Assembly (NCBI RefSeq): GCF_029626105.1
Contig: NZ_JARUBH010000009.1
Span: 3,596,001 to 3,660,000 of the forward strand
DNA: 64,000 nucleotides
Direction of reading: 5' to 3'
Origin: Solwaraspora sp. WMMD792
Lineage (GTDB): Bacteria; Actinomycetota; Actinomycetes; Mycobacteriales; Micromonosporaceae
The position numbers and the translations under genes are program-made. Numbering within the stretch: position 1 is the stretch's first letter; each line of letters starts with the position of its first letter. Under the pieces are notes generated by a model that had not been told where the DNA came from, did no database searches, and was given only the letters and a program-made list of their open reading frames with translations. Of this stretch, positions 33,288 through 39,299 are shown one piece after another.

Positions 33288-33473
33288 GTCGCGACGCCCA
33301 GCGGCTGAGCCGGATGTGGTCGCCGGGACCGGTGAGCAAACAGTGACATTCTCCCAGCAATTTACCTTAATATTCCCAGCTTTGCCCCTTTTATCCGCAG
33401 ATTCGATGACGTAGCGTAATCACTGACCGCAAGGGTGCGGCGCCCCCCGCCCCCTCCCCCCTTGAGGTCAGCG
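33288..33473. other. AT-rich intergenic region before the membrane glycosyltransferase
   Basis: About 85 bases (33340-33425) are much richer in A and T than anything around them (for example TTTACCTTAATATT). They include two TCCCAGC copies at 33352 and 33376. This is a likely promoter/regulatory region for the following gene pair; no hairpin or ORF is seen. Confidence 0.5.
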
Positions 33474-34712
33474 ATGCTGCGGATCTTCCTCACCGCACTG
33501 GTCGTCCTCGGCGGTCTCTTCCTCGTCTCCCTGCTGGTCGCCTTCGGCTACGGCCTGCTGCGCCCGGAGCGGGTCCACCGCGCCGCCCGGGCACGCCGCG
33601 CCAACCACCCCCGGTACGGCCCGGTACGCCACGATCAGGTGGCTATCCTCGTCGCCTGCCGCAACGGCGCCGGCACCATCGCCGCCGCAGTGGCGGCGGC
33701 CCGCCGTACCGGGGCACCGGTCTTCGTCGTCTCCGACGCCTCGACCGACGACACTGCCCGCCGCGCGGCCCAGGCCGGCGCCGAGGTGCTGGACCTGGCC
33801 ACCAACGTCGGCAAACCGGCCGCGCTGCACGCCGGATACCGGCACTTCCAGCTCGGCGCACGGTTCCGGGCGGTGGCGATCCTCGACGACGATGTGATCA
33901 TCGCCGAGAACTTCGTCACCGAGGCGCTGGCCACCATGACCGACCAGGTGGCGATCGCGGTCGGGCACAACGTCACCTGGTGGCCGCGCGAGCACCGGTG
34001 GAATCCATGGCTGGCCAAGCGGGCCTACAGCTACTGGAACTACCAGCTGTTTCTGCGCCGGATCCAGAGCCACTTCAACGTGATGAACTGCATCTCCGGC
34101 TCCAACTCGCTGTACCGGGTGGAACTGCTCGACCGGGTGTTGCCGCAGCAGCCGCCGTACATCGTCGACGACACCTACTGGGTGCTGGAGACCCACCGCC
34201 GCGACCTGGGCCGGGTCGTCTACGCACCCCGGGCCACCGCGCTGTTGCAGGACCCGACCTCACTACGCGACTGGTACAAGCAGAATCTGCGCTGGCTCTG
34301 GGGCACTTTCCAGGGCATCCTCGGTCACCGGGTGGGGCGGCAGGTCAGCACCTTCGACTACGCGTACCTGCTGCTGATCCTGCACTGGGTGCTGTACGTG
34401 GCGGGCGCCCCGCTCACCGTGTGGGTGCTGGCCACCGCCGGACCGGGGTTGCTGCCCGGACTGCTGCTACTCGCTGCCGGTCAGGGTGTCTGGGTGGCAC
34501 TGGCCGCCTGGCGGCTACGGCACCCGCAACTGCTGCTCATGCTGCCGCTGATCATGGTCGCCGACGTGATCTACCGGGTGATCTTCGTCCACGCGGCGGT
34601 CAAGGCCGTACGCCGACCCACCGTTGACCGCTGCGTCTGGTCCTCGCCGGAGCGAATCGGCACCCCGGCAGCCGCCGCCACAGCCGCCACCCCGGCAGCC
34701 GTCACACCGTGA
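33474..34712 (+). CDS. membrane processive-type GT2 glycosyltransferase
   Basis: A 412-residue inner-membrane glycosyltransferase resembling hyaluronan/chitin/cellulose-type synthases. It has one N-terminal TM helix (3-25) and three C-terminal TM helices (about 290-312, 322-342, 350-372). The GT2 motifs are DASTDDT, AILDDDV (metal-binding Asp triplet), VDDTYWVLE in place of the usual acceptor ED motif, and QNLRW (Q270-W274), the QxxRW signature of polymerising enzymes. The ATG at 33474 has GAGG seven bases upstream; the frame before it is only prolines. An AT-rich promoter-like region precedes it and an LPVTG micro-protein gene follows after 90 bp. Probable role: making or extending a surface polysaccharide. 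Product unknown. Confidence 0.9.
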   Translation: MLRIFLTALVVLGGLFLVSLLVAFGYGLLRPERVHRAARARRANHPRYGPVRHDQVAILVACRNGAGTIAAAVAAARRTGAPVFVVSDASTDDTARRAAQAGAEVLDLATNVGKPAALHAGYRHFQLGARFRAVAILDDDVIIAENFVTEALATMTDQVAIAVGHNVTWWPREHRWNPWLAKRAYSYWNYQLFLRRIQSHFNVMNCISGSNSLYRVELLDRVLPQQPPYIVDDTYWVLETHRRDLGRVVYAPRATALLQDPTSLRDWYKQNLRWLWGTFQGILGHRVGRQVSTFDYAYLLLILHWVLYVAGAPLTVWVLATAGPGLLPGLLLLAAGQGVWVALAAWRLRHPQLLLMLPLIMVADVIYRVIFVHAAVKAVRRPTVDRCVWSSPERIGTPAAAATAATPAAVTP

Positions 34713-34778: not shown

Positions 34779-34802
34779 ACCTCGAACGCCTCAGGAGGCA
34801 AA

Positions 34803-34946
34803 ATGTCCGCGAGTCAGGACCTTCCAGTCACCGGAGCACCGGCCGCAGCCGTCGGGCTGGTCGGCGCGATCTCCCTCGCCATCGGTACGGCGCTGGTCGC
34901 CGTCGCCGGCTGGGGCGCGAAGCTGCGCCGCCGCAACAACCGGTGA
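34803..34946 (+). CDS. 47-residue LPVTG membrane micro-protein
   Basis: The ATG at 34803 follows a perfect AGGAGG (34793-34798). The 47 residues are a six-residue start (MSASQD), LPVTG at 7-11, a hydrophobic glycine-rich helix at about 14-37, and a positive tail KLRRRNNR. This is exactly the order of a class A sortase sorting signal (LPxTG, membrane span, positive tail), but with no signal peptide and no mature protein in front. The positive-inside rule predicts N-terminus out, so the LPVTG would face the cell exterior. Sortase cleavage would release a ten-residue peptide. It follows the glycosyltransferase gene by 90 bp on the same strand. Alternatives: a membrane-active peptide, or a remnant of a larger surface protein, although the strong ribosome site argues against decay. 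Confidence 0.75.
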   Translation: MSASQDLPVTGAPAAAVGLVGAISLAIGTALVAVAGWGAKLRRRNNR

Positions 34947-38112: not shown

Positions 38113-39273
38113 TTATGCTGCTGACGGGGCTGATAGTAGCTCGGCGAGGGCCTCGGCGGGGGTGCGGATGCCGAGTGTCTTGCGGGGGCGTCCGTTCAAC
38201 TCGGCGGCGACAGCGGCGAGATGCTCGGCACTGTGGACAGAAAGGTCGGTGCCCTTCGGGAAGTACTGCCGCAGCAACCCGTTGGTGTTCTCGTTGCTGC
38301 CCCGCTGCCACGGCGAGTGCGGATCGCAGAAGTAGATGTCGATCCCGGCAGCGATCGACACCTCGACGTGGCGGGCCAACTCCCGGCCCTGGTCCCACGT
38401 CACCGACCGCCGCAACTGCTCGGGCATTGTCCGGATCGCCGCGATCAACGCATCCCGCACCTGCACCGCGTCGCGCCCGTCGGGCAGGTGCAGCAGCATG
38501 CAGAACCGGGTCGACCGCTCCACCAACGTCCCGATCGCCGACGCCCCGTTACGGCCGATGATCAGGTCGCCCTCCCAATGTCCGGGCACCGCCCGGTCAG
38601 CGACCTCCGCCGGCCGGTCCCGAATGTTGACCATGTCCGACAACCGGCCCCGCCGCTCACGCTCACGCCGACGCGGCCGCCGCAACGCCCGCCCCGTGCG
38701 CAGACACGCCGCCAGTTCCCGCCGCAACGCGCCCCGGCCCTGCACGTACAACGACTGGTAGATCGTCTCCGGTGAAACCCGCATGCTCTCATCGTCGGGG
38801 AACGCGGCCACCAGCCGCAGACTGATCTGCTCCGGTGACCACCGCAACGTCAACCAGTGCTGCACCACCATGTGTAGCCGCTCGTCGGCGGCCAGCTTCG
38901 CGACCTTCGGCCGTCTTGCCCGTTGCCTGGTCATCTTCTCGGCAGGTCCGGCCCGATAGGGGCCCCGCCAACCCTTGTTGCGGGTGACCTCCCGACAGAT
39001 CGTCGACGGCGAGCGACCCAACCGGGTCGCGATCGACCGCTGCGACTCGCCCCGCGCCAAGGCCAGGGCGATCTCCTCCCGCTCATCGAACGACAGGTAG
39101 CGGCCCGACGCCGCCCGAGGTCCGTTGCTCTTCACCCCACCAGCCTCGGCGAACCACCGCAGCTCAGTGGGATGAGTGACCCCGGCGTGTCGTCCCGCCT
39201 CCTCGTTCGACATACCCGCCCGGACCGCGTCCCAGAACGCGACCCGCCGGAACCGGGGCAGTGATCTAGACAT
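38113..39273 (-). CDS. IS30-family transposase
   Basis: A 386-residue DDE transposase. An N-terminal helix-turn-helix (LSFDEREEIALALARGESQR and SIATRLGRSPSTICREVTRN, typical of IS30) precedes the RNase H-like catalytic core. The acidic triad is D236 (HWEGDLIIG), D294 (VTWDQGREL) and E328 (GSNENTNG), with the 33-residue D-E spacing usual for the family. The ATG at 39273 has AAGGGAG five bases upstream; a TTG at 39291 is a less likely start. No frameshift or missing residue, so the element should be able to move. Confidence 0.95.
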   Translation of the reverse strand: MSRSLPRFRRVAFWDAVRAGMSNEEAGRHAGVTHPTELRWFAEAGGVKSNGPRAASGRYLSFDEREEIALALARGESQRSIATRLGRSPSTICREVTRNKGWRGPYRAGPAEKMTRQRARRPKVAKLAADERLHMVVQHWLTLRWSPEQISLRLVAAFPDDESMRVSPETIYQSLYVQGRGALRRELAACLRTGRALRRPRRRERERRGRLSDMVNIRDRPAEVADRAVPGHWEGDLIIGRNGASAIGTLVERSTRFCMLLHLPDGRDAVQVRDALIAAIRTMPEQLRRSVTWDQGRELARHVEVSIAAGIDIYFCDPHSPWQRGSNENTNGLLRQYFPKGTDLSVHSAEHLAAVAAELNGRPRKTLGIRTPAEALAELLSAPSAA

Positions 39274-39299
39274 CGCAACTCCCTTGATCAACTCAGGTG

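Follow-up and report, generated by a model that had tools for sequence, protein, structure and literature searches.

Background

What can a sorting signal do when it carries nothing to be sorted? The question is raised by a small gene in the window, i.e. the whole 64-kb stretch of DNA analysed here, which encodes a micro-protein lacking the usual signal peptide and mature domain and lying directly behind the gene of a membrane glycosyltransferase (GT). The established task of sortases is to anchor proteins. Where a signal without cargo has been conserved next to a polysaccharide synthase gene, and in Saccharibacteria next to a sortase gene as well, a role of sortases in holding polysaccharides on the cell surface becomes directly testable.

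An earlier note on this DNA had described the gene as a free-standing sorting signal, forming a two-gene module with the GT and possibly representing an undescribed small-protein family. These proposals were followed up by comparing sequences across Micromonosporaceae and Saccharibacteria, and are supported.

Results

The micro-protein gene and its glycosyltransferase

The 47-residue LPVTG reading frame, its AGGAGG site and the distance of 90 nt from the stop codon of the GT to the ATG are in the sequence as the earlier note had claimed (Table 1). The translation of the gene is MSASQDLPVTGAPAAAVGLVGAISLAIGTALVAVAGWGAKLRRRNNR followed by a stop; an in-frame stop precedes the ATG, which is 4 nt away from the AGGAGG. 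Six residues only, MSASQD, are N-terminal to the motif, where the cut would be expected between Thr10 and Gly11, and the most hydrophobic 19-residue stretch begins at residue 17 (Kyte-Doolittle mean 2.29).

Table 1. Positions, in the window, of the micro-protein gene, its parts and the neighbouring glycosyltransferase gene
Feature	Position	Strand	Basis
GT2 membrane glycosyltransferase, 412 aa, hyaluronan/PNAG-synthase-like	33474..34712	+	Pfam, NCBIfam, PDB profile, low-confidence model
AGGAGG ribosome-binding site of the micro-protein	34793..34798	+	sequence; orthologues with similar sites
Free-standing sorting-signal micro-protein, 47 aa	34803..34946	+	translation, tblastn orthologues, alignment, dN/dS
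LPVTG motif, residues 7-11	34821..34835	+	L7, P8, T10, G11 invariant in 18 rows
Predicted membrane helix, residues 17-35	34851..34907	+	hydropathy maximum; G18, G21, G28 invariant
Basic tail KLRRRNNR, residues 40-47	34920..34943	+	sequence; R42 invariant

Curated models do not cover the micro-protein, in agreement with the earlier proposal. The top Pfam score was 13.9 bits against a cut-off of 28, and the LPXTG anchor domain of NCBIfam (TIGR01167) reached 12.8 of 15.9 bits. The motif is LPVTG, without the Pro-Glu-Pro before the helix that defines PEP-CTERM signals, and for this short query no Pfam or NCBIfam match over cut-off pointed to a likeness with IcaD/PgaD. The frequency of such reading frames by chance was estimated with a description comprising 35-70 aa, LPxTG within the first 25 residues, a hydrophobic stretch and a basic tail: the gene is the sole match in the real window, and one match was obtained in total over 200 shuffles, which were mononucleotide and not dinucleotide-preserving. 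Conservation, presented below, is the stronger test of whether the micro-protein is real.

The GT most likely starts at the ATG at 33474, since M1 is conserved, and not at the mechanically called GTG at 33435. It features a GT2 domain (PF13641, PF00535 and PF13632, all over cut-off), a D-D-D motif (DDD at residues 138-140), QxxRW (QNLRW at 270-274) and membrane helices, the combination which marks GT2 membrane polysaccharide synthases, and we read it as a predicted enzyme of this type. Its best NCBIfam model is PgaC/IcaA (TIGR03937), with 60.6 bits against an equivalog cut-off of 422.3, and a PDB profile search retrieved hyaluronan synthase 1 (E 2.4e-6). The first five matches of the structural model were hyaluronan synthases and the sixth was the Bcs cellulose complex, after which came mostly soluble GT2 enzymes; as its pLDDT is 64.9, i.e. 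low-confidence, and the TM-scores are 0.6 or less, the fold match is taken as support only.

About 3 kb from the pair, a reading frame on the minus strand (38113-39291) resembles by eye an IS30-type transposase, and the gene adjoining it has a class V aminotransferase fold (PF00266).

Conservation of the micro-protein in Micromonosporaceae

A tblastn search of 354 Micromonosporaceae genomes (E 0.001) returned micro-protein matches in 31 of them. The gene is present in 26, intact in 24 and frame-disrupted in two, where the copy either diverges from the family near the C-terminus (G256) or has its ATG out of frame with the rest (G258). Homologues with an intact start and an LPxTG motif, which the earlier note had suggested looking for in this family, are therefore represented by 24 orthologues, which are 46-47 aa long, start with ATG behind a purine-rich ribosome site and carry the motif LP[VL]TG (LPVTG in 12, LPLTG in 12). 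Among the remaining matches, those of G127, G211 and G337 were found on reading to be C-termini of longer frames; the match of G020 was left unread, as were second matches in G189 and G309. One further genome, G004, holds a remnant in which the end of the GT and the end of the micro-protein run together. There, in the trpD-ctaF interval (L010 / L087), a deletion joins the C-terminal part of the GT to the micro-protein end; on the sequence, one species of the window genus has lost the pair in this way.

In an alignment of 18 rows the invariant columns are M1, Q5, L7, P8, T10, G11, G18, G21 and G28, followed by L31, A35, G38, A39 and R42. The median pairwise dN/dS is 0.40 (273/276 pairs of the 24 coding sequences), and variable columns concentrate at third codon positions (42/46, vs 31 and 24 at the others). 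No larger fused form was seen at the GT locus among the Micromonosporaceae copies; the earlier note had named a decayed end of a larger gene in relatives as evidence against its reading, and this check came out in favour of the note. Sorting signals at the ends of longer proteins do occur in the window genus: of 20 further matches read, 11 are visible signals ending longer frames (e.g. LPITGAP, LPTTGAP, LPVTGAP) and nine are not.

Judged by sequence, the micro-protein represents a genuine and unusual family of small proteins that no curated model describes. It is not filed here as an ordinary sortase substrate because it lacks the signal peptide and mature domain that such substrates usually have. 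No description of LPxTG micro-proteins of this kind was found in the open-licence PMC literature, the only literature covered.

Pairing with the glycosyltransferase gene

A GT match (E 1e-60) was obtained in 27 of the 354 Micromonosporaceae genomes, which include all 26 with the micro-protein. The micro-protein ATG follows the GT stop by 4-90 nt in all 24 placeable pairs. In the 27th genome (G290) the GT is broken, and by eye apparently just the start of the micro-protein gene lies downstream; among the genomes with the pair, at least three GT frames are broken (G209, G256, G292). At the same threshold, the window genome was the only one with the GT among 394 genomes of the class.

The surroundings of the pair vary greatly. 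Neighbouring genes within 4.5 kb were compared for the window and for 14 named actinomycete loci, of which 12 are from Micromonospora and one each from Pilimelia and Longispora. These loci sort into about six or seven unrelated neighbourhoods, the count being approximate because one neighbourhood group partly overlaps another; common to all is the GT with the micro-protein behind it. Within the window genus, the pair lies between trpD and ctaF in 5/5 genomes possessing it. In 23 other genomes 24 ctaF loci were read: 13 of them have trpD within the stretch examined and no GT or micro-protein match, and one (that of G004) holds the remnant described above. The presence of the GT in 26/26 micro-protein genomes, at short distance, supports the proposed two-gene unit.

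A deacetylase link on the actinomycete side was considered and not counted: no deacetylase adjoins the window pair, and the matches found in 5/17 sequences, window included, were weak (E 1.7e-5 to 0.003) and about 5-8 kb away.

Sortases of the window genome

The suggestion that a sortase might be found elsewhere in this genome proved right. Four PF04203 matches are present, all more than 500 kb from the pair: one class E sortase (L001; 228 bits, cut-off 160), the only one of that class in the genome, two class F sortases over cut-off (L002 and L003), and a class-F-like protein (L004) with 113 bits, below the cut-off of 166. By tblastn no sortase was detected near the actinomycete pairs (14 loci, flanks up to 8 kb and less at contig ends); the search took in the flanks of 16 loci, and its sole match was in L122, a Saccharibacteria locus. 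In Actinoplanes missouriensis, one study reports that its authors inferred recognition by SrtE of LPVTG, common to SspA, CwpA and CwpB, and that a quadruple class F sortase mutant had no phenotype (PMC13251363).

Small LPxTG proteins beside sortases in Saccharibacteria

One scan of genome contigs with the GT alignment yielded 16 loci, two of which are MAG contigs named Candidatus Saccharibacteria. In the first (L121), a 47-aa micro-protein whose motif reads LAATG begins 12 nt after the GT; the GC content is 0.53, compared with 0.52 for two other loci of the same genome. The second (L122) has the GT together with a convergent sortase (PF04203, 91 bits) and, upstream on the opposite strand, a 56-aa micro-protein with LPNTG. 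Across 342 genomes of the Saccharibacteria class the GT was found in three: G355, to which L122 belongs; G430, with a 57-aa LPSTG micro-protein, the GT and a sortase 1 nt after it; and G682, where the sortase begins 2 nt after the GT and the micro-protein is not assessable, the GT being cut by the contig edge. A sortase is thus beside the GT in 3/3 loci, two of which have a small LPxTG protein. In G682, the GT-sortase pair (L137:4548-9752) lies near two large genes which by eye resemble quinol/cytochrome oxidase subunits. The window pair is likewise beside ctaF and ctaC, a likeness which is probably coincidence.

An independent search, with the G430 micro-protein alone against 244 genomes of the class (E 0.01), matched 20 genomes, the query's own included. 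All matches except that of G538 are small free-standing reading frames, of which 16 carry LPxTG and the remaining three LPNTA, LPNTS or LPHTS. A sortase (PF04203 in every case) is present locally in 17 of the 20 loci. In 15 it directly adjoins the micro-protein gene in the same direction, and in G355 and G430 the GT lies between the two. No sortase was found around the matches of G392, G538 and G559, that of G559 being at a contig edge. We estimate, without a formal test, that this direct adjacency is far above chance, because the 21 genomes checked contain 67 sortase matches, i.e. about three per genome of 0.7-1.2 Mb. Moreover, a GT2 gene occurs in 18/20 loci and a deacetylase homologue in 15/20. 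Both were assigned by BLAST grouping with Pfam run on representatives only, which confirmed PF01522 in 5/5 of the deacetylase group and GT2 in 4/4 and in L122.

Three of the cluster sortases were scanned in NCBIfam; none reached a class cut-off and two reached the general sortase model. In the 18 that were aligned, His and Cys are conserved in 18/18 and Arg in 17/18. Around the clusters 222 reading frames were called, and none showed a further C-terminal sorting signal after setting aside two micro-proteins with upstream starts and one false match in a long protein.

In G392 (L172, 902-2372), a 59-aa LPQTG micro-protein precedes a GT2 gene by 31 nt with no sortase between, close to the actinomycete two-gene pair with the order reversed. 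In L160 and L171, a dockerin type I match (PF00404) lies at the C-terminus of the deacetylase homologues, which is unusual beside a sortase cluster. A profile of the Saccharibacteria micro-proteins matched 15 of 230 Patescibacteria genomes. Short open frames were obtained in G355, G379, G360 (with an internal stop) and G1270 (40 residues, the motif part only); the other matches are in frames of 204-2720 residues, whose loci were left unread.

Relation between the two modules

In a GT tree of 29 rows, midpoint-rooted for drawing only, three well separated GT2 groups occur in this setting; the actinomycete enzymes join L121 (93/78 support) and then L122, L136 and L137 (100/100). The shared GT suggests common descent of the two micro-protein families. 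Their profile comparison is weak (probability 44%, E 2.3e-4), and the families may be convergent.

Discussion

Proposed function

The micro-protein could be a sortase substrate acting with the neighbouring GT in surface polysaccharide biology, a reading on which our judgement is evenly balanced. It would insert with the N-terminus outside and the C-terminus inside, a topology suggested by the basic tail, with LPVTG facing outward at the membrane. The resident class E sortase, or in Saccharibacteria the neighbouring sortase, would cut the Thr/Gly bond and pass the short N-terminal peptide to an amine of the envelope. If the GT2 enzyme makes a hyaluronan- or PNAG-like polymer, the peptide could be the covalent handle which retains this polymer, or the synthase itself, at the surface; this part of the proposal is tentative and, taken alone, less likely than not.

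Several lines of evidence favour a sortase substrate: the conserved gene under a dN/dS of 0.40, the invariant L, P, T and G, and the strict GT pairing in unrelated neighbourhoods; the class E sortase of the genome, together with the LPVTG recognition inferred for A. missouriensis SrtE (PMC13251363); the clustering in Saccharibacteria of small LPxTG proteins with a sortase, GT2 and deacetylase homologue; and the occurrence of three GT2 groups in this setting, with no other sorting signal among the 222 reading frames. Other observations count against it, namely LPLTG in half of the intact orthologues, LAATG in L121 and the LPNTA, LPNTS and LPHTS variants, the distance of more than 500 kb to any sortase of the window genome and the lack of a sortase match in the flanks (up to 8 kb) of 14 actinomycete loci, the broken GT frames, the rarity of the pair (26/354 family genomes), and the poor GT model with its soluble GT2 matches.

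The principal alternative, which we regard as rather unlikely, is a small structural subunit of the synthase, of which IcaD/PgaD is an example, with a helix that stabilises or gates the GT and an LPxTG motif that is secondary or serves for turnover only. The tight gene order after the GT and the invariant G18, G21, G28, L31 and A35 of the helix would suit such a subunit, but L7, P8, T10 and G11 are equally invariant, and a synthase subunit needs no sortase of the kind found directly beside the Saccharibacteria micro-protein in 15/20 loci. Less probable still is an ordinary surface peptide: the sortase would anchor the decapeptide to peptidoglycan, where it would act by itself, for example in adhesion or spacing, and the GT would be no more than co-expressed. 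Sortases normally anchor their substrates to lipid II (PMC13251363), yet the pairing with three GT2 groups and in 26/26 genomes suggests more than co-expression. It is improbable that the free signal acts as a pseudo-substrate or regulator, occupying the sortase to set its timing or place with a regulatory link to the GT: the missing cargo and the sortase adjacency in Saccharibacteria are what such a role would predict, but what accompanies the micro-protein throughout Micromonosporaceae is the GT (26/26), and no sortase was found in the flanks searched. Lastly, the gene might be the end of a larger LPxTG protein that has decayed, or a frame open by chance; larger proteins of these genomes do end in similar signals, and a few copies are frame-disrupted. 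This reading is scarcely credible and was dropped, as 24 orthologues are intact and have an ATG and a ribosome site, no fusion was seen at the GT locus, dN/dS is 0.40 and the 200 shuffles gave one match.

The sortase-substrate reading has a broader and equally tentative form, a class of sortase systems common to Saccharibacteria and actinomycetes which would serve a polysaccharide pathway and not a protein. A peptide of 10-25 residues would be exported by its own sorting signal and transferred by the sortase, and a hyaluronan- or PNAG-like polymer would thereby be held covalently at the cell surface; the link could form via free amines made by the deacetylase or via a peptide residue that is glycosylated. 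Those Patescibacteria that have been cultivated live on other microbes (PMC12206443), and it may be speculated that such surface polymers bear on their contact with hosts.

Comparison with known systems

Several known systems share components with the one described here. PNAG synthesis employs IcaA/PgaC, IcaD/PgaD and a CE4 deacetylase. The resemblance lies in a GT2 enzyme nearest to PgaC/IcaA and in the PF01522 deacetylase homologues beside the Saccharibacteria clusters; the differences are that the equivalog cut-off is not reached, that the small protein is a sorting signal and that the window pair has no adjoining deacetylase. The XrtG-associated glycosyltransferase (TIGR03111) is a GT2 similar to PgaC whose name links it to an enzyme of the exosortase family. 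Its cut-off is 363.95 bits, compared with 12.7 for the window GT and 107.4 for that of L164, and the enzyme concerned here is a sortase.

Among sortase substrates, the classical LPxTG proteins SspA, CwpA and CwpB, from A. missouriensis, which belongs to the same bacterial family as the window genome and also has a class E sortase, resemble the micro-protein in the order of LPVTG, helix and basic tail. CwpA-G are proteins of 219-762 aa (PMC13251363), in contrast to a micro-protein with no signal peptide and six residues before the motif. In Actinomyces oris, GspA is a cell wall-anchored protein which is glycosylated; it differs in being a surface protein and not a bare signal, and in being glycosylated by an LCP enzyme, LcpA (PMC6381275).

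The closest parallel in function is offered by PEP-CTERM proteins and exosortases, for which a coupling of sorting to exopolysaccharide was proposed from genome comparison (PMC1569441). Both systems combine a membrane sorting signal, a processing enzyme and a tie to exopolysaccharide genes; PEP-CTERM proteins differ in their PEP motif, their exosortase, their occurrence in bacteria with an outer membrane and their signal peptide and mature domain (PMC1569441), whereas the micro-protein system has LPxTG and a true sortase fold. In a study of the PEP-CTERM protein PepA, its overexpression raised bound exopolysaccharide and lowered the soluble fraction (PMC9850573), and by analogy PepA is the best functional precedent for the micro-protein.
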